Origin: Burkholderiaceae bacterium
Lineage (GTDB): Bacteria > Pseudomonadota > Gammaproteobacteria > Burkholderiales > Burkholderiaceae_A
Direction: 5' to 3'
NCBI GenBank assembly: GCA_018882785.1
Contig: VERI01000003.1
Location: 1 to 64,000 of the forward strand
DNA: 64,000 bases
The notes under the pieces are model-generated. The model was not told where the DNA came from, made no database searches, and saw only the letters and a program-made list of their open reading frames with translations. A program made the position numbers and the translations under genes. Shown here piece after piece: positions 7,240 through 63,816 of this stretch (positions are counted from its first letter, which is position 1; each line of letters begins with the position of its first letter).

Positions 7240-7245
7240 GTTATG

Positions 7246-7278
7246 AAGGCAGCCTTGCCACAAGCAGGCTGCTTTTTT
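7246..7278 (+). terminator. intrinsic terminator, probably partial, between dctP and dctQ
   Basis: Stem GCAGCCT / AGGCTGC around a 10-nt loop, extended by A-T pairs and followed by six T. It lies 26 nt before the dctQ start. The short stem suggests incomplete termination, so that some transcripts continue into dctQM; no independent dctQ promoter was recognised. Confidence 0.7.
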
Positions 7279-9776: not shown

Positions 9777-9809
9777 GCAGTCCGACAGCATCGTAAAAGG
9801 TGTATCTTA

Positions 9810-9836
9810 GGGGGCTGGTTGACCAGCCCCCTTTTT
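9810..9836 (+). terminator. strong intrinsic terminator after dctM
   Basis: GGGGGCTGGT, 2-nt loop (TG), ACCAGCCCCC, then TTTTT. A perfect 10-bp GC-rich stem closing the TRAP operon. It lies directly before the next gene, trkH. Confidence 0.93.
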
Positions 9837-9839
9837 ATT

Positions 9840-19169: not shown

Positions 19170-20446
19170 GGCCGGGCCTGTTCCAGTTCAAGGGATGCCG
19201 CCAATAGTGCCAGACGGGCAATGACGCCGTAAACGTAATAGCGGTTGGGCGCAGCATCCGGATGGATTGACTGGTCTGGCTGCATGCAGCTTTCATCAAA
19301 TGGCAGGGGAACGAATTTCATTCCCGGGGCATTCAGGTTCTCATCGGGTCCCCGTTCCGCATGGATCCGATAAAAGCCACCGACGACATATCGATCCACC
19401 ATGTAGACCACAGGCTCGGCGACCGCCTCATCGACATTTTCGACAGTGGGGACACCCTCCTGAATCAATACATCCGAGACCGCAAGCCCTTCTTTCACCA
19501 CCGCCATTTTGTTGCGCTGTTTCCGATTCAGGTTGACGATCTCCTGGGCATCTTTCACCATCATGATGCCCATGCCGTAGGTGCCGGCATCGGCCTTAAC
19601 GACCACAAACGGCGTCTGCTGTACACCAAGTTCTCGATATTTGATCCGGATCCGGTCCAGCATGGTCGAAATGTTGTCGGCCAGACAGGACTCGCCCTCA
19701 CGGGCATGAAAGTCAACTTTGGAGCAGGTGGCATAAAAAGGATCGAGCACCCAAGGGTCGATCTGCAGGCGCTCTGCAAACTGCCTGACCACAGACGAAT
19801 AGGCCGCGAAGTGTTGGGATTTTCGTCTGACTGACCAGCCGGCATGCAGAGGGGGAATGACCTGCTGGCCCTTAATGCCAGACAGCACGGCAGGAATGCC
19901 CGCGGACAAATCATTGTTCAGCAGAATCGCACAGGGATCAAAACCCTCCACTCCCAGTCGGTCGTTGCGTCGCTGCAAAGGCTCAAGCAACAGCTGAGAG
20001 CCATCTGGCAGGTCAATCGGCGTGGGCTGGGTGATCTCGGGAATGAGGGTACCAATCCGAACTTCAAGCCCTGACTGTTTGAGCAGGGCGACCAGACGAG
20101 ATACGTTGCTGAGGTAATAGGTGTTTCGGGTGTGGCTCTCAGGAATTAAGAGAAACCGACGGGCATCCGGACAACGGCGCTCGACGGCCGCACTCATCGC
20201 CTGCACCGCCAGCGGCAGTGCGTGCTCTGACAGATTGTTAAATCCCCCTGGGAAGAGATTGGTATCTACGACCGAGAGCTTAAAGCCCGCATTTCTTATA
20301 TCGACAGAGGCATAAAACGGCGGTGTGTGGGAAAGCCACTGAGACCGAAACCAATGTTCGATTTCAACACTGGCCTGCAATATGCGCTGCTCTAGGGCGG
20401 CAAGCGGACCCCCGCCATCGGGACGATTTAGAGTGTAAGGCACCAT
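19166..20446 (-). CDS. gshA: glutamate-cysteine ligase, betaproteobacterial type
   Basis: First step of glutathione synthesis, joining glutamate and cysteine. It is the roughly 430-aa family found in beta- and some gammaproteobacteria and acidithiobacilli, not the E. coli GshA type; here 426 aa. Seen: SVDIRNAGFKLSVVDTNLFPGGFNNL, VVKADAGTYGMGIMMVKD and the C-terminal NAPGMKFVPLPFDES (motifs quoted in part). ATG 20446 was chosen because the longer frame runs through the amtB terminator. A TAAAAT element lies 8 nt upstream, leaving almost no leader. First gene of the glutathione-PTS operon. Confidence 0.93.
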   Translation of the reverse strand: MVPYTLNRPDGGGPLAALEQRILQASVEIEHWFRSQWLSHTPPFYASVDIRNAGFKLSVVDTNLFPGGFNNLSEHALPLAVQAMSAAVERRCPDARRFLLIPESHTRNTYYLSNVSRLVALLKQSGLEVRIGTLIPEITQPTPIDLPDGSQLLLEPLQRRNDRLGVEGFDPCAILLNNDLSAGIPAVLSGIKGQQVIPPLHAGWSVRRKSQHFAAYSSVVRQFAERLQIDPWVLDPFYATCSKVDFHAREGESCLADNISTMLDRIRIKYRELGVQQTPFVVVKADAGTYGMGIMMVKDAQEIVNLNRKQRNKMAVVKEGLAVSDVLIQEGVPTVENVDEAVAEPVVYMVDRYVVGGFYRIHAERGPDENLNAPGMKFVPLPFDESCMQPDQSIHPDAAPNRYYVYGVIARLALLAASLELEQARP

Positions 20447-20454
20447 AGTTGGGC

Positions 20455-20482
20455 ATTTTAGCCAAGCTGGCGCTTTTGTCCG
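20455..20482 (-). promoter_or_regulatory. candidate gshA promoter
   Basis: Minus-strand CGGACA (20482-20477), 16-nt spacer, TAAAAT (20460-20455). Transcription would begin around 20448, within about two bases of the gshA ATG, implying a leaderless message. It sits between the amtB terminator and gshA, the only room for a promoter. Confidence 0.5.
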
Positions 20483-20485
20483 ATT

Positions 20486-20515
20486 AAAAAAAAAGCCCGC
20501 CGTTTCCGGCGGGCT
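20486..20515 (-). terminator. intrinsic terminator after amtB
   Basis: On the minus strand: AGCCCGCCG, GAAA tetraloop, CGGCGGGCT, then a run of T. A perfect 9-bp stem with a stable tetraloop, 27 nt after the amtB stop. It closes the porin-glnK-amtB operon and insulates gshA. Confidence 0.95.
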
Positions 20516-20542
20516 CAAGCAGACATCAACTAGGAGAATGTG

Positions 20543-21973
20543 TTACAGGTAGTACGCCTTTTCACCGTGCGATGTGGTATCCAAGCCCTCACGCTCGGAC
20601 TCCTCGGGTACACGCAGGCCCACGATCATTTTCACGATCAACAGGGCAATGACTGAGACCACTGCCGAGAGGACAATCGTGGTGATGACGGCCTCGGCCT
20701 GAATCAGCAGCTGGCCACTGATGGAATATTCCTCACCCACCTTATCGGCAACGTAATCAAAGATGCCGGTGCCGCCAAGTGAGGGTGCTGCGAATACGCC
20801 GGTCAGCAGTGCGCCGATAATTCCGCCCACGCCGTGAACGCCGAAGACATCCAGGGAGTCATCTGCCTTGAGCATGCGTTTCAGACCGGTCACGCCCCAG
20901 AGGCAGACAAATCCTGCCGTCAGACCGATGATCAGCGCGCCGACCAGGCCCACAAATCCAGCGGCGGGCGTGATCGCGACCAGGCCAGCAACCGCGCCGG
21001 ATGCAGCACCCAGCATGGAGGGCTTGTTACGGAAGATGGCCTCGCCGAGTGTCCATGCAACGATGGCCGCTGCAGTCGCAAACAGGGTGTTGGTGACCGC
21101 AAGCGCTGCGGTACCCGTGGCCTCGAGGTTAGACCCGGCATTAAATCCGAACCAGCCCACCCAGAGCATTGCTGCGCCAACCATGGTCAAGGTCAGATTG
21201 TGTGGCGGCATCGGCTCTTTGCCATAGCCGGTGCGCTTGCCCACCATGTAGGCGGCGACGAGACCGGCGACACCTGCATTGATGTGGACCACGGTACCAC
21301 CTGCAAAGTCCAGGGCACCTTTGGCCCAGAGCGCGCCAGCAGCAGCGATCACGGCCTCCAGGGATTTTGCATCCGTAATTGCATCTGGACCGTCCCAATA
21401 CCAGACCATGTGTGCGGTTGGAATGTAGGCAAACGTAAACCAGAGCACCAGGAACATCAGTACAGCAGCAAATTTCATACGCTCAGCAAACGCGCCCACG
21501 ATAAGAGCGCAAGTGATGGCGGCAAATGTGCCCTGGAACGCAACGAACATAAGCTCAGGGATGACCACCCCTTTGCTGAACGTGGCAGCCACTGAATCGC
21601 CTGTAATCCCGGACAGAAATGCCTTGTCAAACCCGCCGACAAAGGGACTGCCTCCAGTAAAGGCCAGCGAGTAGCCATAGATCGCCCAGAGAACGAAGAT
21701 TAATGCTGCGCCAACCATGACCTGCATCAGGACCGAGAGCATATTCTTGGAGCGCACCAGGCCACCATAGAACAGTGCAAGACCGGGTACGATCATCGAC
21801 AACACCAGAACGGTCGAGATCATCATGAAGGCGGTATCACCCTTGTTGGGAACGGGTGGTGCTGCGGCTGCCGGAGCATCTGCAGCAAACGCCAGCGACG
21901 CCAGGCCAACCGTGCCAAGCACGGCCAGCAGCGGCTTTAACAGGCGCGCGATGGGGAAGTGAAGGAGTTTCAT
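20543..21973 (-). CDS. amtB: ammonium transporter AmtB
   Basis: Inner-membrane ammonium channel of 476 aa. It begins with a signal peptide (MKLLHFPIARLL, then hydrophobic, cut near AFAADAP), followed by about 11 membrane segments. Family motifs seen: FYGGLVRSKNMLSVLMQ, DFAGGTVVHINAGVAGLVAA (pore histidine), GWFGFNAGS, and DDSLDVFGVHGVGGIIGALL (second pore histidine). ATG 21973 has AGAGG upstream; an in-frame TTG 15 nt earlier was rejected. It follows glnK by 31 nt, the classic pair in which GlnK plugs AmtB under nitrogen sufficiency. Confidence 0.96.
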   Translation of the reverse strand: MKLLHFPIARLLKPLLAVLGTVGLASLAFAADAPAAAAPPVPNKGDTAFMMISTVLVLSMIVPGLALFYGGLVRSKNMLSVLMQVMVGAALIFVLWAIYGYSLAFTGGSPFVGGFDKAFLSGITGDSVAATFSKGVVIPELMFVAFQGTFAAITCALIVGAFAERMKFAAVLMFLVLWFTFAYIPTAHMVWYWDGPDAITDAKSLEAVIAAAGALWAKGALDFAGGTVVHINAGVAGLVAAYMVGKRTGYGKEPMPPHNLTLTMVGAAMLWVGWFGFNAGSNLEATGTAALAVTNTLFATAAAIVAWTLGEAIFRNKPSMLGAASGAVAGLVAITPAAGFVGLVGALIIGLTAGFVCLWGVTGLKRMLKADDSLDVFGVHGVGGIIGALLTGVFAAPSLGGTGIFDYVADKVGEEYSISGQLLIQAEAVITTIVLSAVVSVIALLIVKMIVGLRVPEESEREGLDTTSHGEKAYYL

Positions 21974-23664: not shown

Positions 23665-25239
23665 ATGGCTTTTTCTGTGGTTCAGTCTCGGGCAATTGCC
23701 GCCCTGACCCTACTCCCTGTCTCTGTTGAAACCGATCTGTCCAACGGCCTGCCGCAATTTTCAATCGTGGGCCTGCCCGATGCCGCAGTGCGCGAGGCGA
23801 AGGAACGGGTTCGCTCTGCGATTATCAACTCTGGTTTTGAGTTTCCTCAGCGACGAATTACGGTCAATCTTGCACCCGCGGATCTGCCAAAAGATTCTGG
23901 CCGCTTCGATCTTGCCATCGCAATTGGAATTCTGATTGCCAGCGGGCAGATCAGCTCGGCCAGACTGTCGGCGACCCTAGGCGAGCTGATCTTTGTCGGA
24001 GAGCTGTCGCTTACGGGCCAGCTACTGCCGATTCGTGGCGCCTTTGCGATGGCAGTTGGATTTCTGCGTGAACAGACCAGCCAGCACCGCCTCATTCTGC
24101 CGCTACAAAATCAGGCGGAGGCCTCGCTGACGGACTCTGACCGCCTGTGTTTTGCTGCAAGCCTTGCCCAGGTGGCCGCCCATCTGAAAACAGCGACATC
24201 ACTGGCCGGGCTGCAGCCGCAGGGCCGGCATTCTCGGAGTCAGCGGAGCCAAGAGTCATGGTCAGATGTGCGTGGCCAGCATGCAGCCAAGCGTGCGGCC
24301 TTAATTGCTGCAGCGGGACAGCATAATCTGCTGATGCTGGGACCACCTGGGATTGGCAAATCGATGATTGCATCCCGTATGGCGACGTTACTACCGGATC
24401 TCAGCCATGCACAGGCCTGCGAGCTGGCAGCAGTACAGAGCCTGTCGGGCAGCATCGATCTTGCTTCCTGGCAGCGGCCACCCTATCGGGCACCCCACCA
24501 TAGCGCATCATCGCGGGCACTCATTGGAGGTGGCCAGCCGGTGCGTCCGGGAGAGATCTCCTTGGCCCATCATGGTGTTTTATTTCTTGACGAATTTCCT
24601 GAGTTCGCCCGGGATGCCCTTGAGTCATTGCGTGAGCCGCTCGAAAAATCGGAAGTGAGCATTGCGCGCGTTCGGGATCGCGTGACGTTTCCCGCGGACA
24701 TCATGTTGATTGCCGCAATGAACCCATGTCCTTGCGGCTATTTTGGCGTTCGTCATCCCAAGCGGCATTGCCGTTGTACCCCGGATCGTATCGCCCGCTA
24801 TCGCAACCGAATCTCGGGCCCATTAATGGACCGCTTCGATATGGTGATCGGACTCGAAGCGCCCAGCGCCGATGAGCTCTTACATCCGTTGACCGAAATC
24901 ACGCAGGGTCAGGCCGCAGATAGGCAGGACGATGCCACCATCAAATCCTCCGTTGATAAGGCACGACACCATCAACAAAGACGTCAGTCATGCCTGAATG
25001 CCCGTCTTAGCATTGCAGAGATTCAACGCCATGCGCCACTCGATGTGCAGGCAGAGCAGCTGATGTCTAAAGCGGCCCGGCACTGGGGCTGGAGCGCCCG
25101 CTCCTGGCATCGGGTGCTACGGGTGTCACGAACGATCGCGGATCTCGCAGATGCGGCCGATGTTGGACTTACGCATGTTGCCGAGGCGATTGAACTGCGG
25201 CGTGCTATTGATCTCGGGGCGCAAGACGGTGTGACCTAA
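23665..25239 (+). CDS. comM: ComM/YifB family Mg-chelatase-like AAA+ ATPase
   Basis: AAA+ helicase of 524 aa that promotes branch migration during integration of transformed DNA in competent species. Seen: N-terminal Lon-protease-like fold (GLPDAAVREAKERVRSAI; VNLAPADLPKDSGRFDLAIA), Walker A LGPPGIGKSMIASR, Walker B FLDEFPEF, the cysteine cluster NPCPCGYFG ... HCRC, and a C-terminal Mg_chelatase_C domain. The second of two nearby ATGs (23665) fits the family start MAFSVV. It is convergent with, and overlaps by 35 nt, the next MFS gene. Confidence 0.94.
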   Translation: MAFSVVQSRAIAALTLLPVSVETDLSNGLPQFSIVGLPDAAVREAKERVRSAIINSGFEFPQRRITVNLAPADLPKDSGRFDLAIAIGILIASGQISSARLSATLGELIFVGELSLTGQLLPIRGAFAMAVGFLREQTSQHRLILPLQNQAEASLTDSDRLCFAASLAQVAAHLKTATSLAGLQPQGRHSRSQRSQESWSDVRGQHAAKRAALIAAAGQHNLLMLGPPGIGKSMIASRMATLLPDLSHAQACELAAVQSLSGSIDLASWQRPPYRAPHHSASSRALIGGGQPVRPGEISLAHHGVLFLDEFPEFARDALESLREPLEKSEVSIARVRDRVTFPADIMLIAAMNPCPCGYFGVRHPKRHCRCTPDRIARYRNRISGPLMDRFDMVIGLEAPSADELLHPLTEITQGQAADRQDDATIKSSVDKARHHQQRRQSCLNARLSIAEIQRHAPLDVQAEQLMSKAARHWGWSARSWHRVLRVSRTIADLADAADVGLTHVAEAIELRRAIDLGAQDGVT

Positions 25240-26443
25240 ATAGCCAGAAAAGGGCGACCACCTGGGCCACAATCCAGCAGACAAATGCCGTCTTCAGTCC
25301 CTGTGCATTGTCTTGGCCCGCGAGCATCGCAAGGTCAACAACCACGCCAAGACCCCACTGCATAAAAAAAGCGCCGGCAAACACAATGAAATTCACGCTG
25401 GTGTTGGCCCTGCCACCCATGTCGACTGGAAAGGCAAGGCTGGTCTGGGCATAGATAATTGCGGTAACTGAGGTGGTCATAAACATCAGCGACCAGCCGA
25501 CAATGGGATTACCCCAGACATCAAAAACGGCACAGAGCGTCAGCAGCAGCATGACGGAGCACCCGCCAAGCAGCACCCGGTCAAGAGAAATATTCCAAGA
25601 TGGAAATCGTGATCCAAGCCAGCTCATGACCATATGCGAGCCCATCACCACAATACCCAGGATCAGCAGACTGGTCGCCGCCTGACCCGCCGGCTGCCCC
25701 TCGACCGTGCGCAGCCAGGGACCAATCCATAATCCTTGCACTGCCAGGAATCCGCCATAAGTGAAAATACAAAGAGGAATAAGCCGTTTTACCCGCGGAT
25801 GGGTGAAGACCATCTTGGCACCAGCGGTGACATCCTGCCAGTAGGGCAGTGTCGCTTTTGGCGGCTCTGGAAGTCTGGGCAGGACCCACAGCAGTCCGGC
25901 AACAGACAATAAAAAGAGCAGTGCAGCGAGTATAAAAACACCACGCCAGTCGAGCATCGGCAGCAGCAATTCAACCGGAAGCGTCGCGGCAAGTGCACCG
26001 AAGGATCCCACCATCAGCATTAAAGAGGCCAGACTCGTCTGCTGCTCATCACGAAAACAGAGCCGATAGGTGGTGTAGGCCGCCATAAGACAGGCAGAGA
26101 CGCCGATGCCGATCATCGCCCGGCCGATCCACAGGGCGACGAATCCCTGAGCAAACGCGCTGATGACACAGCCCGCTACGGCAAACATCAGCAGACCGAT
26201 CTCTACTTTTCTCGGACTGTGACGATCGAGCAAGGCGCCCAAGGGAATCTGCATCGCCGCAAAGGTCAGAAAATATCCGCTGGAGAGCAGGCCGAGTTCA
26301 GAGGCTGTGAGTGAAAACTCATCGGTAAGGGGGCCCGATAAGACCGCATTCACGGTCCGCATGACATAAGATAAAAAGTACGCACCCGCAAATGGCAGAA
26401 AAACCTGCATCAGGCTTAATGATCGAGAGGAAGAGGTCTGCAT
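25205..26443 (-). CDS. MFS transporter, substrate unknown
   Basis: Major facilitator carrier of 412 aa with about 12 hydrophobic segments. Signature loop: MQIPLGALLDRHSPRKVE; the first segment reads FLPFAGAYFLSYVMRTVNAVL. ATG 26443 was chosen because the 35 residues before it in the open frame reach back into the upstream lipoprotein gene. No strong ribosome-binding site is seen. It is broadly like the carrier at 11287-12612 (both have the pattern MQ-P-G-L-DR-PR), but the two differ in detail and are not duplicates. It lies 28 nt after the lipoprotein gene on the same strand. Confidence 0.83.
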   Translation of the reverse strand: MQTSSSRSLSLMQVFLPFAGAYFLSYVMRTVNAVLSGPLTDEFSLTASELGLLSSGYFLTFAAMQIPLGALLDRHSPRKVEIGLLMFAVAGCVISAFAQGFVALWIGRAMIGIGVSACLMAAYTTYRLCFRDEQQTSLASLMLMVGSFGALAATLPVELLLPMLDWRGVFILAALLFLLSVAGLLWVLPRLPEPPKATLPYWQDVTAGAKMVFTHPRVKRLIPLCIFTYGGFLAVQGLWIGPWLRTVEGQPAGQAATSLLILGIVVMGSHMVMSWLGSRFPSWNISLDRVLLGGCSVMLLLTLCAVFDVWGNPIVGWSLMFMTTSVTAIIYAQTSLAFPVDMGGRANTSVNFIVFAGAFFMQWGLGVVVDLAMLAGQDNAQGLKTAFVCWIVAQVVALFWLFRSHRLAPRDQ

Positions 26444-26471
26444 CGACAGATAAAGAATAAAAAGGACTGGC

Positions 26472-27056
26472 CTAACGAATGAATCGAAGTGATTCGATAA
26501 ACTGCCGGGCGTTTTCCTCTTGAAGCTCATACGTGGGCCCTGCAGCAACTATCTCGACCACCCGTACCGCACCTTTTTTTAATGGTGCTGGATCTGCAAT
26601 AACCAGGCTGCGCATCCAGATCCGGGCCGGCACTGGGGCCGTGCCGTTTGCAATGGCCATCTGCCCCGTAGCGGTCACCTCATAGATCAGCAGATCACCG
26701 TGTTGGATTTCTTTGCGTTCAATGGACTCGGGCCTTGCACCAATATTGGCGAGCATTGCAGACTCCAAAACAGAACGAATTTCTGCATTTGCATCCAGTA
26801 CCCAGCCGACTGCAAACACGGTGTGATCGATTCGGGCCGATCGCAGCGTGAGCATAAAGCTTGCCGCATTTTTGGCCGACGCGAGCGTCCGACTGACCTC
26901 GACAGGTTTTGCAGGAAAAAGTGCGGATGCCGCGATCGGCTCAAGCTGAATGTCGCGCCAGTCTAGACGCGGTGTGCATCCATTCACCAGCCCCACAATG
27001 CCCAGTATGAGTGCCCATTGCAGGACTGGCCGCACTAAAATGAATGGTCCGTTCAT
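26472..27056 (-). CDS. predicted lipoprotein, function unknown
   Basis: Protein of 194 aa not recognised as a named family. From ATG 27056 it has a short hydrophobic signal (LVRPVLQWALILGIVGLVNGC) with a lipobox ending at Cys27, so it is probably lipid-anchored. The soluble part mixes strands and helices (LTLRSARIDHTVFAVGW; EIRSVLESAMLANIGARP; VRVVEIVAAGPTYELQEENA). The open frame continues upstream across the divergent DUF1840 gene and was cut there. The two divergent starts are only 15 bp apart, so at least one promoter must lie within coding sequence. Confidence 0.75.
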   Translation of the reverse strand: MNGPFILVRPVLQWALILGIVGLVNGCTPRLDWRDIQLEPIAASALFPAKPVEVSRTLASAKNAASFMLTLRSARIDHTVFAVGWVLDANAEIRSVLESAMLANIGARPESIERKEIQHGDLLIYEVTATGQMAIANGTAPVPARIWMRSLVIADPAPLKKGAVRVVEIVAAGPTYELQEENARQFIESLRFIR

Positions 27057-27071
27057 CAGGAGCAGTGTAGC

Positions 27072-27404
27072 GTGATCATTGAATTCAAGAGCAAGGCTGC
27101 CGGCGCGTTTTTCATGACCGAGCCTGTCATGAAGATGGTCTTCTCGGCAATCGGAACAGAGTTTTCGCCCAAGGGAATTTTTACTGCGGAGCGTATTCCG
27201 GAGATTCGTCGTCAATTGGCTGCGGCAATCGAGCGTTCACGTCAACAGGACCAGGCGCGGATTGATCAGCATCACGACCAGGTTCGAGAGGGCGAGGCAA
27301 GTGCCCAGGAATTCCCGATCGGCCTCTCTCAGCGGGCATTCCCGCTCCTGGAGATGCTCTCAGCAGCAGAAAAAAAGAAAGTGCCGGTCGTCTGGGGCGT
27401 CTAA
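27072..27404 (+). CDS. DUF1840 domain-containing protein
   Basis: Cytoplasmic protein of 110 aa. The family's N-terminal pattern (IIEFKSKAAGAFFMTEPV, FSAIGTEFSPKGIF) and C-terminal LSQRAFPLLEML ... VPVVWGV are clear. DUF1840 is common in betaproteobacteria and has no known function. The start is GTG 27072. It is divergent from the lipoprotein gene and convergent with metH, with a 20-bp perfect palindrome between the two ends. Confidence 0.85.
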   Translation: MIIEFKSKAAGAFFMTEPVMKMVFSAIGTEFSPKGIFTAERIPEIRRQLAAAIERSRQQDQARIDQHHDQVREGEASAQEFPIGLSQRAFPLLEMLSAAEKKKVPVVWGV

Positions 27405-27416
27405 CCCGATGGGTGT

Positions 27417-27436
27417 GCTGGGCCTATAGGCCCAGC
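27417..27436. repeat. 20-bp perfect palindrome at the metH 3' end
   Basis: GCTGGGCCTATAGGCCCAGC reads the same on both strands and includes the metH stop codon; it lies 12 nt after the DUF1840 stop. As RNA it forms an 8-bp stem with a TATA loop in either direction. Without a T-run on either side it is a stabilising or pausing hairpin rather than a standard terminator. Confidence 0.7.
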
Positions 27437-30400
27437 GCGGGCGCAAGCCGAGACCGCGCGACATCTTCTTTGACTTCGGCACGGTGGGCGTAATCTTTGA
27501 GCTGGTCATCACCGATGATGCCCAGATTGAAATACTGTGACTGGGGATGCCAGAAATAAAACCCAGATACTGCAGAGGCGGGCATCATGGCGAGGTTCTC
27601 GGTGAGTGACATGCCGATTTCTTCAGCCTGCAGAATCTGAAAGAGTGCTGACTTTACCGTATGGTCAGGGCAGGACGGATAGCCTGGTGCAGGCCGGATT
27701 CCTTGATAGCGTTCTGCAATGAGATCCGCGTTGGTCAGCCGCTCCTGTGGACAGTAGCCCCAGAATTCGGTGCGAATACGTTGATGCAGACGTTCAGCAA
27801 ATGATTCGGCGAGTCGATCCGCAATCGCCTTCACCAAGATCGCGTTGTAGTCGTCACCCTTTGATTCGTATTCCCGTGCAATCGCATCAGCCCCATCAAT
27901 GCAGACCGCAAATCCCCCCAGATAGTCGCCAATGCCGCTGCCCTGCTTCGCCACATAATCAGCGAGGCTCTTATTAAATTCTCCAGCGGGTTTCTGAGTC
28001 TGCTGCCGTAGTCCGATCCAGGTCAGAATCGGCGTCTGACGTGATTCGTCGGCGTACAGTGTGATGTCTTCTGGGCCGGTACGCTGCGCTGGATACAGAC
28101 CAAAGACCCCGTTGGCGGTCAGTCTGCGTTGGGCCAGTAGTTTTGCCAGCATGGCCTTGCCATCGGCATAGACCTGGCGCGCCTGGAGGCCAACGACCTC
28201 GTCGTCCAAGATGGCAGGAAACGATCCTGCAAGATCCCAGGTCTGAAAAAAGGGTGTCCAGTCAATCGTATCGACCAGTTCATTCAGGTCATAGGATTTC
28301 AGTACTCGCCGGCCAAGTGCTTTCGGTGTCGGCGGCACATGTTTTTTGAAATCGACTGTTGGTGCATTGGCCCTGGCCTGATCCAGTGTCAATAATGGGG
28401 TAGCGGTTTTTGCTGCATGGCGTTCGCGCAACTTCTGATAGTCGCGCATGACATCACCAAGATAGGCACCCCGTTGCGCGGCATCGCTGGTCAGCGACTG
28501 GGCCACGGGAACCGAGCGGCTCGCATCCGGCACCCATATCACTGGGCCAGAATAGCTGGGCGCGATCTTGACGGCGGTATGGATGCGCGATGTCGTCGCC
28601 CCACCAATCAGCAGCGGAATCTGTCTGCAGCGGCACCACTCATCGCGCTCCATCTCCCGAGCCACGGTGGCCATCTCTTCAAGCGAGGGTGTGATCAGGC
28701 CCGAAAGCCCGATGATGTCTGCATTGTGTTCGCGGGCCGCCTGCAAAATCTGTTGGGCAGGCACCATGACCCCGAGATTCACGACCTCGAAGTTATTGCA
28801 CTGGAGCACTACCGAGACAATATTTTTCCCGATATCGTGCACGTCACCTTTCACGGTGGCAATGATGATTTTGCCCTTGGCCTGTGTCGTTCCTGAGGCC
28901 TTTTGCTCTTCTTCAATAAAGGGAACCAGATGGGCAACCGCCGCCTTCATTACCCGGGCGGACTTCACGACCTGGGGCAGGAACATCTTGCCTTGCGCAA
29001 AGAGATCGCCGACCACATTCATGCCGGACATCAATGGCCCCTCGATGACCTCAATCGGCCGACCACCGCGGGCATGGATCTGTTGACGGACTTCTTCGGT
29101 GTCCTCAACAATAAACTCGGTCAGGCCGTGGACCAGCGCATGTTCGAGCCGTTTCTCTGGGGCCAGGCTGCGCCACTGATGCTGTGCCTCTTCGCGACGA
29201 CCCTCGCCTTTTAGTGTTGCCGCGAATTCAATCATTCGTTCTGTGGCATCGGAGCGTCGGTTGAGAACGATGTCCTCGACCCGCTCGCGCAGCTCGGGAT
29301 CGAGATCCTCGTACACCCCGAGCTGTCCCGCGTTCACAATGCCCATGGTCATGCCGGCCTTGACTGCGTGATACAGGAAGACGGTGTGGATCGCCTCCCG
29401 CGCAGGATCGTTGCCGCGGAAAGAAAAACTCACATTAGAGACACCACCCGAGATTTTGGCGTATGGCAGATGCTGGCGAATCCATCGCGTGGCCTCGATA
29501 AAATCAATGGCGTAGGCATTGTGTTCTTCAATTCCCGTCGCAATCGCGAAGATATTGGGATCGAAAATAATATCCTGGGGCGCGAATCCTACGGTCTCCG
29601 TGAGCAGTCGATATGCCCTGCTGCAGATTTCTTTGCGCCGCTCCAGGCTATCGGCCTGACCCTGTTCATCAAAGGCCATCACGATTACGGCAGCCCCATA
29701 TTTTCTGCATAGCTGGGCCTGACGTAGAAACTCTGTCTCACCTTCTTTTAGGCTAATTGAGTTCACGATCGCCTTGCCCTGTACACACCTCAGTCCGGCT
29801 TCAATCACGCTCCATTTCGATGAATCGATCATGATCGGCACGCGGGCGATGTCGGGCTCAGAGGCAATTAGATTGAGGAATCGAACCATGGCGGCCTCAG
29901 AGTCAAGCATGGCCTCGTCCATATTGATATCGATTACCTGTGCGCCATTTTCAACCTGTTGTCGCGCGACCGCGATGGCCTGCTCAAACTCACCGGCAAG
30001 AATGAGCCGGGCGAATTGCTTGGATCCGGTCACATTGGTCCGTTCGCCGACATTGACAAAAAATGACTGTTCATCAATGTTGCAGGCCTCCAGGCCTGCC
30101 AGTCTGAGCTTAGGCACCACCGCCGGAATCTTGCGGGGAGTGAACTGTTGCACGGCCTCCGAGATCGCCTGAATATGCTCCGGCGTCGTGCCACAGCATC
30201 CACCGACAATATTCACCCAGCCCTGTTCGGCAAACTCTTTTAAGAAGCCGGAAGTGATCGGAGGCGTCTCATCAAAGCCGGTTGGGGCCATAGGATTCGG
30301 CAGGCCTGCATTGGGGTAGACGCAAATGGCGGTATCCGCGAGACGCGATATCTCTTCCACATAAGGCCGCATCAATGCAGCCCCGAGCGCACAGTTCAGG

Positions 30401-31185
30401 CCGACCGTAATGGGCTGGGCATGAGAAACGCTATTCCAGAAAGCCTCTACGGTCTGGCCTGAAAGAATTCTTCCGGAGGCATCGGTAATCGTGCCGGAGA
30501 TCATCACCGGCCAACGCATCCCGCGTTCTTCGAACACAGTCTCCATCGCAAAGAGGGCGGCCTTTGCATTCAGGGTGTCGAAAATTGTCTCCAGCAAAAT
30601 CAGATCGGCACCGCCATCAAGGAGTGCTTCCACCTGCTCCTGATAGGAGATGCGGAGCTGCTCGAAATTAATATTCCGGGCGCCCGGATCGTTTACGTCG
30701 GGAGAAATCGAGGCGGTTCTCGGTGTGGGACCGATGGCTCCGGCGACAAAGCGCGGCCGATCGGGTGTCGAGAATGCGTCGCAGGCCTGTCGTGCAAGCC
30801 GGGCAGAGGCAAGATTCATCATCCGCGCCAGCTGTGGCAGGCGATAGTCCTCTTGGGCGATGGTGGTCGCACCGAACGTGTTGGTCTCCACAATATCGGC
30901 GCCTGCTGCGAGATATTGATGGTGAATCTCGGTGATGACCTCCGGCCGGGTCAGAGACAACAGTTCATTGTTGCCCTTTACATCAATGCCCTGGCCGGTC
31001 GCATGCGCGATGGCAGACGCAATCTCCTGAGAGATATCGGATCGGCCACCCCCGCGGTACTGCTCTTCAGAGAGCTTGTACTGCTGGATCATTGTCCCCG
31101 TGGCCCCATCAAGGATCATGATGCGCCGGGCCAGTTGCTGGCGAAGCGTGGCAAACGCTGAGGATTCAGGCAATCGGCTGGGCAT
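27424..31185 (-). CDS. metH: cobalamin-dependent methionine synthase MetH
   Basis: Transfers a methyl group from 5-methyl-THF to homocysteine through B12; 1253 aa, full length. Domains in order: homocysteine-binding ([13 protein letters not shown]; metal cysteines in [11 protein letters not shown]), pterin-binding ([18 protein letters not shown]), B12-binding with the axial-ligand motif [10 protein letters not shown] and [13 protein letters not shown], and a C-terminal SAM-dependent reactivation domain ([27 protein letters not shown]). ATG 31185 was chosen; an upstream in-frame start lies beyond a terminator-like hairpin. Function joins it to metF, ahcY and metK later in the window. Confidence 0.97.
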
Positions 31186-31191
31186 AGAAAT

Positions 31192-31215
31192 AAAAACGGG
31201 GATCTGGGATCCCCG
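31192..31215 (-). terminator. terminator-like hairpin directly before metH
   Basis: Minus strand: CGGGGATC, loop CCA, GATCCCCG, then TTTTT: a perfect 8-bp stem with a T-run ending 7 nt before the metH ATG. It is either the terminator of the upstream metallo-hydrolase gene or an attenuator in the metH leader. A shorter competing hairpin (CCCG-ATG-CGGG) could form just upstream, using part of the same arm. Confidence 0.75.
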
Positions 31216-31239
31216 CATCGGGCATGGGCAAATGGACGC

Positions 31240-32232
31240 CTATTTTAGACTGTCCAGCCAGCAGACAAGACCGTCGCTATTGAGCTTGAGGTCGAGATCC
31301 AGCACCTCCAGGCACTGCGCATCGGAGAGCGTCACCCCGTGCGCTCGCAATTCGCCGAGCATCAGCGCCGTGAGGTCTTCCCGGATACGGGCTGCCCGCG
31401 CGGGGCCCGCATCTCGGTGGCGCAGGGCGATATCGGCGAAGGCATCGATCTGATGGGCCAGATGCTGGGCATGCCGATCGACATCGCGGACTTCCGCGTA
31501 ATGGGTCAGGTAGACCGCGGGCGGCTTGGCGGCAGCCACCCGCAGAACAGAGGCCTTGAACTCTTTAGGGTCAAACTGGGATGGCGAGGATGTGACAAAC
31601 ACATAGGCACCCTGTGCGGTGTCGAAATCTCGGTATGAAATTCCAAAAGTGTCGCCTGTGAAAAATGAATTTGTGCGCACATCGCGAATAAAGACATGGT
31701 GGCGGGCATGGCCGGGGGCATCCCAGAACTCAATGGCTCTGCCCGCAAGGCTGACCTGCGCGCCCTCTGGGGTCTCGATAATGCGTTCTGCGGCAATAGG
31801 ATCCAGCCCACCATACTCCCGGGCCGCCATCTCGGGGCCGTAGACCTCGCAGACTGCAGCCCAGAGCTTGGACGGATCGGTCAGGTGGCGAAGTCCCCTG
31901 GGGTGTACCGTCACGGTGGCGTTTGGGCAATGCCGCAGCAGACTGCCCGCACCGCCGGCATGGTCAAGGTGGACGTGAGAAAGCAGAATCCAGTCCACAT
32001 GCTCGGGGCCCAGGCCGAGCGCCCGGATGGACTCAAGAATTCTTGGCACCGCGTATTGGGTCGAGGTGTCCACGATGGCAATGCGGCCCTGCTCAACAAT
32101 CAAGTGGACGGCATCGAACTCGTCCCGATAGTAGCCAGAGTCCATGGCGTAAATGCCCTGTCCAAAATCGCGCAGCAGTGAAGTGGGCTGCGGTGCCTGC
32201 GCGTGCTGATGAAAGGGATTTGGAAATGTCAT
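31240..32232 (-). CDS. metallo-beta-lactamase fold hydrolase
   Basis: Soluble protein of 330 aa with the MBL metal-binding motif LSHVHLDHAGGAG (HxHxDH), a further His in WDAPGHARHH, an Asp in FFTGDTFGI and a late His in YLTHYAEV. These suit a two-metal hydrolase of the glyoxalase II/lactonase-like group. The C-terminal 90 residues are helical. Substrate unknown; no signal peptide. It sits between gatB (8-nt gap) and metH, probably transcribed with gatCAB. Confidence 0.85.
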   Translation of the reverse strand: MTFPNPFHQHAQAPQPTSLLRDFGQGIYAMDSGYYRDEFDAVHLIVEQGRIAIVDTSTQYAVPRILESIRALGLGPEHVDWILLSHVHLDHAGGAGSLLRHCPNATVTVHPRGLRHLTDPSKLWAAVCEVYGPEMAAREYGGLDPIAAERIIETPEGAQVSLAGRAIEFWDAPGHARHHVFIRDVRTNSFFTGDTFGISYRDFDTAQGAYVFVTSSPSQFDPKEFKASVLRVAAAKPPAVYLTHYAEVRDVDRHAQHLAHQIDAFADIALRHRDAGPARAARIREDLTALMLGELRAHGVTLSDAQCLEVLDLDLKLNSDGLVCWLDSLK

Positions 32233-32240
32233 GGATGACC

Positions 32241-33698
32241 TTAGGAATGAAGCCTGGAGCGAATCAGTTCAGTGACCTGTTGCGGATTGGCCTTGCCTTG
32301 CGATTTTTTCATGACCTGGCCCACCAAGGCATTTAAGGCCTTGTCTTTTCCAGCCTTGAATTCCTCGACCATTTTTGGATTAGCGGCGATCACCTCATCC
32401 ACAAAGCCGGTAATCAGCCCGCTGTCTTGAATCTGCTCAAGGCCTTTGGCGGCGATGACAGCATCGGCCGTGGGATATTCCCCACTCCACAGGCTTGCAA
32501 AGACATCGCGGGCGATCTTGTTCGAAATAGTGCCATCCGCGACCCGTGCAATCAGACCCGCGAGCTGCGCTGCCGACACCTTTGTCTGGTCAATATCTAG
32601 ACCTTCACGATTCAGATTAGACGCCACATCGCCCATGATCCAGTTGGCAGCCAGCTTTGCATCAACACCCTGGCCCTCACCGGCGCGGATCACCTGGAAA
32701 AAATAATCCACCGTGGGCCGTGTGGCGGACACCATCAGTGCGTCGTAGTCAGAGAGCCCAAATTCCTGTGATAGCCGTGTCCGTAATGCCTCAGGAAGCT
32801 CAGGCAGCTCGGACCGAATCTGCTCGATCCAGTCGGCAGAAATGATCAGAGGCGGAAGATCCGGGTCCGGAAAGTAGCGATAGTCGTGGGCATCTTCTTT
32901 GGAGCGCATCGCGCGCGTCTGTTCTGCATCCGGATCATACAGACGCGTCTCTTGGATCACCGCACCACCGTCTTCGATCAGCTCAATCTGTCGTTGCGCT
33001 TCGACTTCAATTGCACGCTCGAGAAAACGAAACGAGTTCAGATTCTTGATTTCACAGCGGGTGCCAAAGGCCTGCTGGCCGACAGGCCGCACAGAAACGT
33101 TGGCATCGACCCGAAATGAGCCCTCTTGAAGGTTGCCGTCGCAGATCCCGATCCAGGTCACCAGCGTGTGCAGCGCCCGCGCATAGGCGGCCGCCTCTTT
33201 TGCCGATCGCATCACGGGCTCACTGACGATTTCAAGCAGTGGTGTTCCGGCGCGGTTCAGATCGATGCCCGAGCAGCCTGACGGAATCTCATCTACCCCC
33301 TCATGGAGAGATTTTCCGGCGTCTTCTTCAAGATGTGCGCGCGTCAGTTCGATGGACCGTTGACCCTGATCGGTGATGATCCGAATCTGTCCGCCTGAGA
33401 CCACGGGAATTTCATACTGGCTAATCTGGTAGCCCTTGGGAAGGTCTGGATAAAAGTAATTCTTTCGCGCAAAGATCGAGCGCTGGGCGATCGTGCCGCC
33501 CACCGCCAGACCGAAGCGAATCGCGCATGCGGCCGCCTCACGATTCATCACGGGCAGCACGCCGGGTAATGCCATATCCACCATATGGGCCTGGGTGTTC
33601 GGCGCCGCTCCAAACTGTGTCGATGCGGGCGAAAATATTTTCGATCGGGTTGCGAGCTGCACGTGGCACTCTAGTCCGATCACGATCTCCCAGTTCAT
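32241..33698 (-). CDS. gatB: Asp-tRNA(Asn)/Glu-tRNA(Gln) amidotransferase subunit B
   Basis: Kinase/tRNA-binding subunit (485 aa) of GatCAB, which phosphorylates misacylated Glu-tRNA(Gln) or Asp-tRNA(Asn) and aminates it with GatA-derived ammonia. Seen: [54 protein letters not shown] and the C-terminal YqeY-like tail ([20 protein letters not shown]). Its start overlaps gatA by 4 nt. Confidence 0.97.
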
Positions 33699-35229
33699 GC
33701 GGACCTCCGTACCGGCGGCGGGGTTCTGGTATGCCAGTCGGTGGCTGCCTGCAGGTGATAGGCGGTCTGTAACAGCAGCGATTCTTTTAGCCGAGGGCCA
33801 ATGAGCTGCATGCCGATCGGACGTTGTGCGGCACCGGCCTGTCCAAACCCAACCGGAACCGACATCGCGGGCAGTCCCGCCAGGTTCACGCCAAGGGTAT
33901 AGATGTCGGCAAGATATTCCTGCAAAGGATTGGTTGTTGGCGCATCAATGTCCCAGGCCACGGTCGGGGCCACGGGCCCTGCAATCAGATCGCAGTCAGC
34001 AAAGGCCGCATCAAAGTCCTGGGCGACGAGCCGGCGTACCCGCTGGGCCTGAATGTAATAGGCATCGTAGTAGCCATGCGAGAGCACAAATGTGCCGATC
34101 AGAATTCGTCGTTTGACCTCATGGCCAAACCCCTCGGCCCGCGACCGACAGTACAGGTCCATCAGGTCTTTCGGGTCTGCCGCCCGATGCCCATAGCGCA
34201 CGCCATCAAAACGGCTGAGATTGCTGGAGGCCTCTGCAGGCGCAATCACGTAATAGGCGGGAATGCTCAGCCCGGTTCGGGGCAGCGAGACCTCGCGGAT
34301 CTGAGCCCCGAGCCGGGTGAGTTCGGCAAGCGCTGCATCGATGGCGGCCCTTACCTCTGTGCTTAAGCCGTCGGCAAAAAATTCTTTTGGCAGTCCAATC
34401 CGAAGTCCTGCCAGTGGCGTTGCGGCCTTGGCCTGCGGCAGGGGCTGATCGATGCCGGCAGCAAAGTCTTCGGCATCAAGCTCCAGGCTAGTGGAGTCTT
34501 TCTGATCAAAGCCGCACATGGCCGACAACAGCACCGCGCAGTCCAGTGCGGTCCGCGCGATTGGCCCGGCCTGATCAAGGCTGGAGGCATAGGCGATCAT
34601 CCCCCAGCGTGAGGCACGGCCATAGGTCGGTTTGATTCCGGTCAGACCACACATTGCTGCCGGCTGGCGAATCGAGCCGCCGGTATCAGTCCCCGTAGCG
34701 GCGGGGACCAGGCCGGCGGCCACGGCCGCTGCCGAGCCCCCAGAGGAGCCCCCGGGAATTGCCCGGTGGTCCCAGGGATTTTTTGTCGGGCCATAGGCGG
34801 AATGGGTGTTGCCCGAGCCCATGGCGAACTCGTCGCAGTTCAGCTTGGCCACGCACACCATTCCGGCGTGATGGAGCTTCTCGACCACAGTGGCGTCAAA
34901 AGGGCTCATGTAGCCGGCAAGGATTTTCGAGGCGGCTGTGGTGGGCCAGTCTCGGGTAACGAAGATATCTTTATGAGCAATCGGGAGCCCACACAGCGAA
35001 AATCCGCGCCCAAGGCTGCCCGCCTGCCCCGCCACGGCAGACCTAAGCTGTGCCTGGGCGGCCTCTGCCTGCCGCAGGCTGGCCTCTGGATTGACAGCCA
35101 ACACGGCATTTAGGCCGTCGTCGGCAAGTCTGCGAAGTGTCCATTGGGTCAGCTCAGGCGCGGTGAAAGCCCCGTCCGCAAGCCCTTTGGCCAGTCCAGC
35201 CAGATCTGAGAAGTCGGGGATTGAGGCCG

Positions 35230-35233
<4 letters not shown>
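33695..35233 (-). CDS. gatA: Asp-tRNA(Asn)/Glu-tRNA(Gln) amidotransferase subunit A
   Basis: Amidase-signature subunit (512 aa) that hydrolyses glutamine to supply ammonia to GatB. Seen: catalytic lysine in [14 protein letters not shown], the Ser-rich signature [16 protein letters not shown], then [24 protein letters not shown] with the nucleophile serine. Start and end overlap gatC and gatB by 4 nt each, so the three subunits are translationally coupled. Confidence 0.97.
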
Positions 35234-36620
<1,387 letters not shown>

Positions 36621-36641
36621 GGGGGTTGCCATCGCCTAGCT

Positions 36642-37550
36642 ATGGCACTTTCCCAGAGTCCTCCACCGCTTTTTAAACAAGGCCTTCCCGCCCGGCTTCG
36701 TATGCTGATCGCTGTGCTTGCAGCGGTCGGCATGCTCTATTCCGACCTTCATTTCGGCATGCTCAAGCCCCTGCGACAGGGGCTCTCGATGGTGCTGTAT
36801 CCGATTGAACAGCTGCTGATCCTGCCCCGTGATATCGCCTTGTGGCTCGGCCGATATGGCGCAGTGGTCTCCGACGTGGCGAGTCAGCGGGTGTCATTAG
36901 AGCGAAAAGAGGTCGAGTATTCCGAAAGCCTGCTGCAGACCGAGCAGCTACGCCTGGAAAACGAAAGCCTGCGCGCCTTGCTGGAGCTGCGCAAACTAAT
37001 TAAACACAAAACGGTCGCCGCCCAGATCAGCCATGAGACCCGAGATGCATTCTCAAATCGGATCGTGATTGATCGTGGAAGTCAGCATGGGGTTGCGCCA
37101 GGACATCCGGTCATCAATGCCCATGGCGTAGTGGGCCAGGTCATGCGTGTCTCGCCGATCACTGCAGAGGTCTCACTGGTGACCGATCCATCGTTGATGA
37201 TTCCGGTGAGTCTGCCTCGTTCCGGACTGCGTAGCCTGGCCTCGGGCACGGGCGATGGCCAGCAGGTGGAATTGAAATACCTCAATATCAACGCCGAGGT
37301 AGATGTCGGCGATGTACTGGTCACATCGGGCCTGGATGGCCTGTATCCGAGTGGACTGCCCGTTGCAAAAATTAATCGTGTCGAGCGTGCGGGCAGCGGA
37401 CAGTTTCCTCGTATTACGTCAACTCCGGTGGCGGTGATCGGCACCTTGCAGCATGTGCTGGTGATTCTGATTGACCAGGAACTGATTCCACCCGCGCCGC
37501 GTGAGATGGACCGCCCAATTCCGAAGGCCAGAAATGAGATGAACAAATGA
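36642..37550 (+). CDS. mreC: rod shape-determining protein MreC
   Basis: Inner-membrane-anchored periplasmic scaffold of the elongasome, 302 aa. Seen: a cytoplasmic N-tail, one membrane helix (RMLIAVLAAVGMLYSD), a coiled coil (about 85-115, TEQLRLENESLRALLELRKL), then the beta-domain with IVIDRGSQHGVAPGHPVIN, GVVGQVMRVSP and VLVTSGLDGLYPSGLPVA. It lies 21 nt after mreB. Confidence 0.95.
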   Translation: MALSQSPPPLFKQGLPARLRMLIAVLAAVGMLYSDLHFGMLKPLRQGLSMVLYPIEQLLILPRDIALWLGRYGAVVSDVASQRVSLERKEVEYSESLLQTEQLRLENESLRALLELRKLIKHKTVAAQISHETRDAFSNRIVIDRGSQHGVAPGHPVINAHGVVGQVMRVSPITAEVSLVTDPSLMIPVSLPRSGLRSLASGTGDGQQVELKYLNINAEVDVGDVLVTSGLDGLYPSGLPVAKINRVERAGSGQFPRITSTPVAVIGTLQHVLVILIDQELIPPAPREMDRPIPKARNEMNK

Positions 37551-63704: not shown

Positions 63705-63739
63705 CTCGCGCTCCTTTCACAATGGTGTTGAAGGGTTTC

Positions 63740-63816
63740 GCGAGCGCCGTTCATACGGACCACCACCCAAGCCTGGGAGGGCCGATAGGCCCCCTCGCAG
63801 CGCTCCTTGAGCGGGG
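63740..63816 (-). ncRNA. SAH riboswitch upstream of ahcY-metF
   Basis: The leader matches the S-adenosylhomocysteine riboswitch class: on the minus strand CAAGGAGCGCTGCGA, a GGGGGCC-TATC-GGCCCTCC hairpin, CCAGGCTTGGG, then AACGGCGCTC. GAGCGC (63806-63801) pairs with GCGCTC (63747-63742), giving the class's pseudoknot. SAH riboswitches turn expression on when SAH accumulates, and are known upstream of ahcY in beta- and gammaproteobacteria. The element ends about 35 nt before the ahcY ATG. Confidence 0.92.

Follow-up and report, generated by a model that had tools for sequence, protein, structure and literature searches.

The window analysed here comprises 64,000 nt and belongs to the genome designated G000, from a bacterium of the Burkholderiales type. 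On its minus strand it contains metH (27424-31185), which encodes a cobalamin-dependent methionine synthase of 1253 amino acids. The assignment is based on matches above the cut-offs of NCBIfam NF007024 and TIGR02082 and on start alignment: the gene reads from an ATG at 31185 to 27424, and this ATG aligns with an ATG in all seven genomes of the genus. Upstream, on the same strand, lies a gene for an MBL-fold protein of 330 amino acids (31240-32232; PF00753), which is preceded at a distance of 8 nt by gatB (32241-33698, minus strand) and further upstream by gatA (33695-35233, minus strand). Because of the short gatB-MBL gap and the overlap of gatA and gatB, the three genes probably form one operon. 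The MBL gene ends with a TAG stop codon at 31242-31240, and 54 nt separate this stop from the metH ATG. The gap holds a hairpin of nine pairs, a T-rich tract and then the start codon.

The hairpin (31196-31216, minus strand) consists of the 5' arm CGGGGATC at 31215-31208, the loop CCA at 31207-31205 and the 3' arm GATCCCCG at 31204-31197. An outermost G-U pair of G31216 and T31196 lengthens the stem of eight Watson-Crick pairs to nine (31216-31208 with 31204-31196). The T-rich tract TTTTTATTTCT fills the space from the stem to the metH ATG (31186-31196, minus strand); it starts with T5 at 31196-31192, followed by ATTTCT, and from the last T of T5 it is 7 positions to the A of the ATG. The U-tract of the relatives is TTTTATTTTT. 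The metH start codon comes 11 nt after the end of the perfect stem, and the hairpin begins 23 nt past the MBL stop. The 8-bp stem, the T5 run, a TAAAAT hexamer at 31247-31242 and an alternative hairpin CCCG-ATG-CGGG at 31222-31212 had been pointed out in an earlier note on this DNA, and the sequences and coordinates given there proved to be exact.

The metH-leader hairpin exceeds the chance expectation. With nine pairs, a loop of three and a U-tract immediately 3' of the stem, it has the GC-rich stem of at least 7 bp, the short loop and the U-tract of an intrinsic terminator. In a 12-kb scan (25000-37000) it ranks first among 13 terminator-like sites, against 10.0 sites expected overall from shuffles. 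Among 20000 shuffles of the 69-nt stretch, 116 gave a hairpin of at least eight pairs with a T-run, and such hairpins are present in 33 of 12516 genomic windows of the contig. The leader fold has a z-score of -2.9, and none of 200 shuffles was equally stable. A terminator score of the d'Aubenton-Carafa type is positive in every genome that carries the hairpin (32 in G000; 42 in G002, G004 and G005).

The comparison covered the seven genomes of the genus (G000-G006) and, from sister genera, ten loci of genus g2 and six loci of genus g3. Both metH and the MBL gene are present in all seven genus genomes; in the family the MBL gene was found in 23 of 26 genomes, and metH adjoins it at all 23 such loci. 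The hairpin with its U-tract and its spacing to the ATG occurs in G000, G002, G004 and G005, that is, in four of the seven genus genomes. As judged by reading the upstream regions, this element is absent from G001, G003, G006, the ten g2 loci and the six g3 loci, so that the overall frequency is 4 of 23. In a protein tree of the MBL protein and the MetH N-terminus from nine genomes the four carriers are one clade with a support of 0.998. Among 300 genomes drawn from the order (a draw without G002, G004 and G005), the hairpin pattern with up to three mismatches was found only in the window's own genome.

At fourfold degenerate sites the identity of G000 to the other three carriers is only 35-38%, i.e., these sites are saturated, and 53 of 268 fourfold columns are invariant across the four. 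In the hairpin arms, 17 of 18 positions are invariant: eight of the nine stem pairs are the same in all carriers and only the ninth differs, being G-U in G000 and G-C in the others, while the first base of the loop varies. The near invariance of the arms at saturated synonymous sites shows that the hairpin is under selection. The earlier note had named conservation of the hairpin and of a competing pairing in relatives, as well as covarying stems, as a check. The hairpin itself was indeed recovered in three further species, but the competing pairing is not conserved, and no compensatory change occurred in the stem among the four carriers, so that covariation provides no proof of the pairing itself.

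The -10-like hexamer TAAAAT (31242-31247, minus strand) overlaps the MBL stop codon and is probably the metH promoter, as judged from its conservation. It is kept in all four carriers and in the outgroup G001, and its first T is supplied by a CTA codon, which accounts for 4.6% of the Leu codons. Six genomes have 43 Leu columns in common (G003, with CTG at this position, was left out), and the only column with CTA throughout is the one that makes TAAAAT. The proposal that a metH promoter lies upstream of the hairpin has therefore become probable. The -35 region of the candidate is weak. If TAAAAT is the promoter, the metH leader would be roughly 50 nt long and contain the terminator. The predicted start site and the 5' end of this leader would fall into 31217-31241 (minus strand), between the -10-like element and the hairpin, where G000 shows no conservation with the other three carriers. 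In the first 144 kb of the window's contig (G000:C51) TANAAT was found 27 times, compared to about 91 occurrences expected from a first-order Markov model, and 10 of the 27 stand at most 60 nt before an ORF on the same strand. This roughly 3.4-fold depletion makes the hexamer a useful promoter marker in the genus.

Outside of the carrier clade, in genus g2, a TATAAT was detected by script 7-11 nt before an in-frame start codon at 8 of 10 loci; inspection by eye revealed the same layout in G007, and G010 is devoid of TATAAT. A TACAAT precedes the metH ATG of G003 by 6 nt, and in G001 the distance from a TAAAAT to an in-frame TTG is likewise 6 nt. These arrangements suggest that the ancestral metH had little or no leader, and that its leader became longer in the carrier clade through the hairpin block. 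At individual loci (L015, L016 and L018-L024 of g2, and L006 and L007), metH appears to be leaderless: its in-frame TTG or ATG is situated 6-11 nt downstream of a TANAAT, and the hexamer sometimes overlaps the MBL stop codon there.

The short distance of the outgroup metH genes to a promoter-like hexamer, exemplified by G003, would also be in line with another view, namely that the hairpin is a plain 3' terminator of the upstream operon, that TAAAAT is fortuitous, and that metH has an unrecognised promoter over the T-tract or the stem. The typical position behind a stop codon and the weak -35 region fit this view as well. However, none of the four carriers contains a TANAAT between the stem and the ATG, and it would leave the exclusive CTA column at TAAAAT to coincidence. 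We regard it as decidedly unlikely.

Terminators elsewhere in the genomes served as a reference for the metH site. A strict hairpin scan of the fetched regions of the seven genomes, which replaced a looser scan with 272 matches at -8 kcal/mol or better, yielded 39 edge or intergenic hairpins, based on crude longest-ORF gene calls. A same-strand stop codon is present within 120 nt of 22 of them, at a distance of 19-32 nt in 14 of the 22 cases; stems 20-25 nt behind a stop codon are thus typical. Only five of the 39 have a TANAAT in the 90 nt preceding the stem, namely the four metH sites and one site in G006. In five others, the amtB-gshA orthologs, it follows the stem. The predicted order of promoter, terminator and start codon is thus unusual in this set, and it is kept in all four carriers.

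The amtB-gshA intergenic region of the window (20440-20570, minus strand) contains a terminator followed by a TAAAAT hexamer in four genomes (TACAAT in G006), and gshA starts a few nt behind this promoter-like hexamer. The core arms of this terminator are unchanged in the four carriers of the metH hairpin, and the loop varies. Similarly, 40 nt at the dctM terminator are identical between G000 and G005 at saturated divergence, although the genes behind it differ. Judged from these two controls only, arm invariance is not special to the metH site, and invariance alone is no argument for a switch.

The interpretation that we favour, with a slightly better than even chance of being correct, is that of an intrinsic terminator with two roles: it ends the gatAB-MBL transcripts and attenuates metH to a fixed, leaky extent. 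Transcription of the gatAB-MBL operon would stop at this terminator, and, as the likely metH promoter lies upstream of it, the same element would also halt most metH transcripts after about 40-45 nt. A fixed leaky fraction would read through into metH, the expression of which would be set by the strength of the terminator and not by a metabolite-sensing fold. Promoter use, termination itself and the read-through fraction are predictions from the sequence. The invariable adjacency of the MBL gene and metH fits the read-through account. As MetE (PF08267) was found in none of the seven genus genomes and metH is the only methionine synthase seen, these bacteria have to express metH; in the absence of a second promoter, this requires appreciable read-through. 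The plain alternative of the earlier note, a terminator for the upstream gene combined with a poorly placed metH start, is retained in its first half, as an upstream-gene terminator fits best, with the addition that transcription from the likely metH promoter must also pass it. The start is not poorly placed, as the alignment of the ATG in all seven genomes has revealed.

Several points speak against a fixed attenuator. Placed ahead of the only methionine synthase it would be wasteful, the candidate metH promoter has a weak -35 region, and only four species carry the hairpin, without any compensatory change. Moreover, the likely promoter of the amtB-gshA region follows the terminator, as expected, whereas that of metH precedes it. 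If the interpretation is correct, two adjacent transcription units use one terminator, and this terminator determines how much of the only methionine synthase found in these small genomes is made. It would represent a compact, fixed form of attenuation, in which 65 nt hold the promoter element, the upstream stop, the terminator and the start codon.

It had also been proposed that the short hairpin CCCG-ATG-CGGG (31212-31222, minus strand) acts as an antiterminator. Its outer C-G pair is present in one and its inner G-C pair in two of the four carriers, and it is complete only in G000. Leaders cut before the 3' arm fold with about -6 kcal/mol, which is no better than shuffles, compared to -16 to -18 kcal/mol for the whole leader. 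Another pairing, of UCC(A)CYG with CGGGGA, can be formed in G002, G004 and G005, but G000 lacks two of its six pairs, and six pairs are also reached by 151-446 of 500 shuffled leaders. A conserved, mutually exclusive antiterminator was thus not found across the four carriers. Near metH no Rfam family scored above its threshold; the best permissive match was to an unrelated sRNA family (15.6 versus 48 bits), and no known model of a methionine, SAM, SAH or B12 riboswitch aptamer matched. Of the suggested attenuator of about 50 nt, the terminator in a likely leader remains, without antiterminator, aptamer or Rfam family, and nothing in the metH leader points to a new metabolite switch. The only Rfam match in the window at the gathering threshold is a SAH riboswitch at 63735-63814 (minus strand).

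Regulation would also be conceivable without a classical riboswitch, if an RNA-binding protein, a small RNA or an NTP-sensing event at the start site decided about termination. The order of promoter, terminator and start codon in all carriers and the invariant arms without compensatory change would agree with such a regulated attenuator, as would the potential pairing of UCCACYG with CGGGGA in three carriers, in which one C-to-U change keeps the pair. Naville and Gautheret (2010) regard 5' terminators as candidate attenuators if the downstream start is closer than the upstream stop, and the metH hairpin passes this distance filter with 11 versus 23 nt (PMC2965389). The same source provides a precedent, the rimP leader, for which a protein was inferred from an invariant stem without visible antiterminator (PMC2965389). 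On the other hand, the arms of the two control terminators are equally invariant, the alternative pairing is no better than in shuffles and is broken in G000, and the leader upstream of the stem differs between G000 and the rest. A regulated attenuator is, therefore, rather unlikely. We consider it unlikely, too, that a clade-specific attenuator of about 50 nt arose in an ancestrally leaderless or nearly leaderless metH and that its invariant stem is recognised by a trans-acting protein or RNA, a system that would be unlike known riboswitches, MetR, SahR and MetJ.

The inverted repeat might not be a terminator at all, and instead represent a DNA operator, or a 5' hairpin that stabilises the mRNA and exposes the start site. 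Conserved arms with a variable first loop base would be compatible with an operator, and an exposing hairpin would suit a gene for which no Shine-Dalgarno-like sequence was seen by eye and the start region of which is U-rich and unpaired. However, the U-tract directly behind the stem is conserved, which is a terminator trait, and no second exact copy exists in the seven genus genomes, unlike for a regulon operator; a repeated element was rejected for the same reason. The repeat is also a different palindrome, compared by eye and without a matrix scan, from the MetR operator, a 15-bp palindrome ATGAA-N5-TTCAT according to Leyn et al. (2014; PMC4239095). Such an operator or 5' hairpin is very unlikely. 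Two coding explanations were discarded. An N-terminal extension of MetH through the hairpin, from an ATG at 31218 that is in frame in G000, has no upstream in-frame start in G002, G004 and G005, and G002 and G004 have an in-frame TGA just before the hairpin. A small upstream ORF from the ATG at 31225 across the hairpin is rejected, as this ATG is missing in the three relatives.

Among known systems, the metH element resembles the rimP leader in having a same-strand terminator that is nearer to the downstream start and an invariant stem without visible antiterminator. It differs in its presence in only four species, as the rimP leader is called the most ubiquitous in that survey (PMC2965389). 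Furthermore, metH is not a gene for an RNA-binding protein or a transcription factor, and its terminator has a suitable position for the upstream gene as well. The proximity of a terminator to a start codon is not new, since 18 candidate attenuators less than 15 nt from the start codon are given there for E. coli (PMC2965389). With ordinary Rho-independent terminators such as those of amtB-gshA and dctM it shares the GC-rich stem, the U-tract, the position 20-32 nt past a stop codon and the invariant arms, but a likely promoter before the terminator and a start codon 11 nt behind the stem set it apart. Leyn et al. (2014) describe metH of Comamonadaceae as controlled by a SAH riboswitch (PMC4239095), which is likewise an RNA element before metH in a betaproteobacterium; metH of the window, in contrast, has no SAH aptamer. 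Cobalamin riboswitches, although B12 is relevant to MetH, are found elsewhere in six of the seven genus genomes and not at metH. In the literature surveyed, i.e., titles and abstract openings, no metH attenuator of this kind is described. If regulated, it would be a switch for methionine synthase of a size far below that of known riboswitches; on the present evidence, it is a sound but unremarkable candidate for the list of 5' terminators.

Two further hairpins of the window deserve mention. The 40-nt block of the dctM terminator, behind the TRAP permease gene (9800-9839, plus strand; C91:18928-18967, L099, in G005), was found in 2 of 41 genomes searched and could be a 3'-UTR-derived small RNA. 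A strong hairpin with a T-tract is located at 7245-7276 (plus strand) between dctP and the next TRAP-transporter ORF (dctP-dctQ). It has no clear G005 counterpart in the alignment that would make it a further control, and G005 has a different strong hairpin (16359) at the same junction. The dctP-dctQ hairpin of the window is possibly an intercistronic attenuator.
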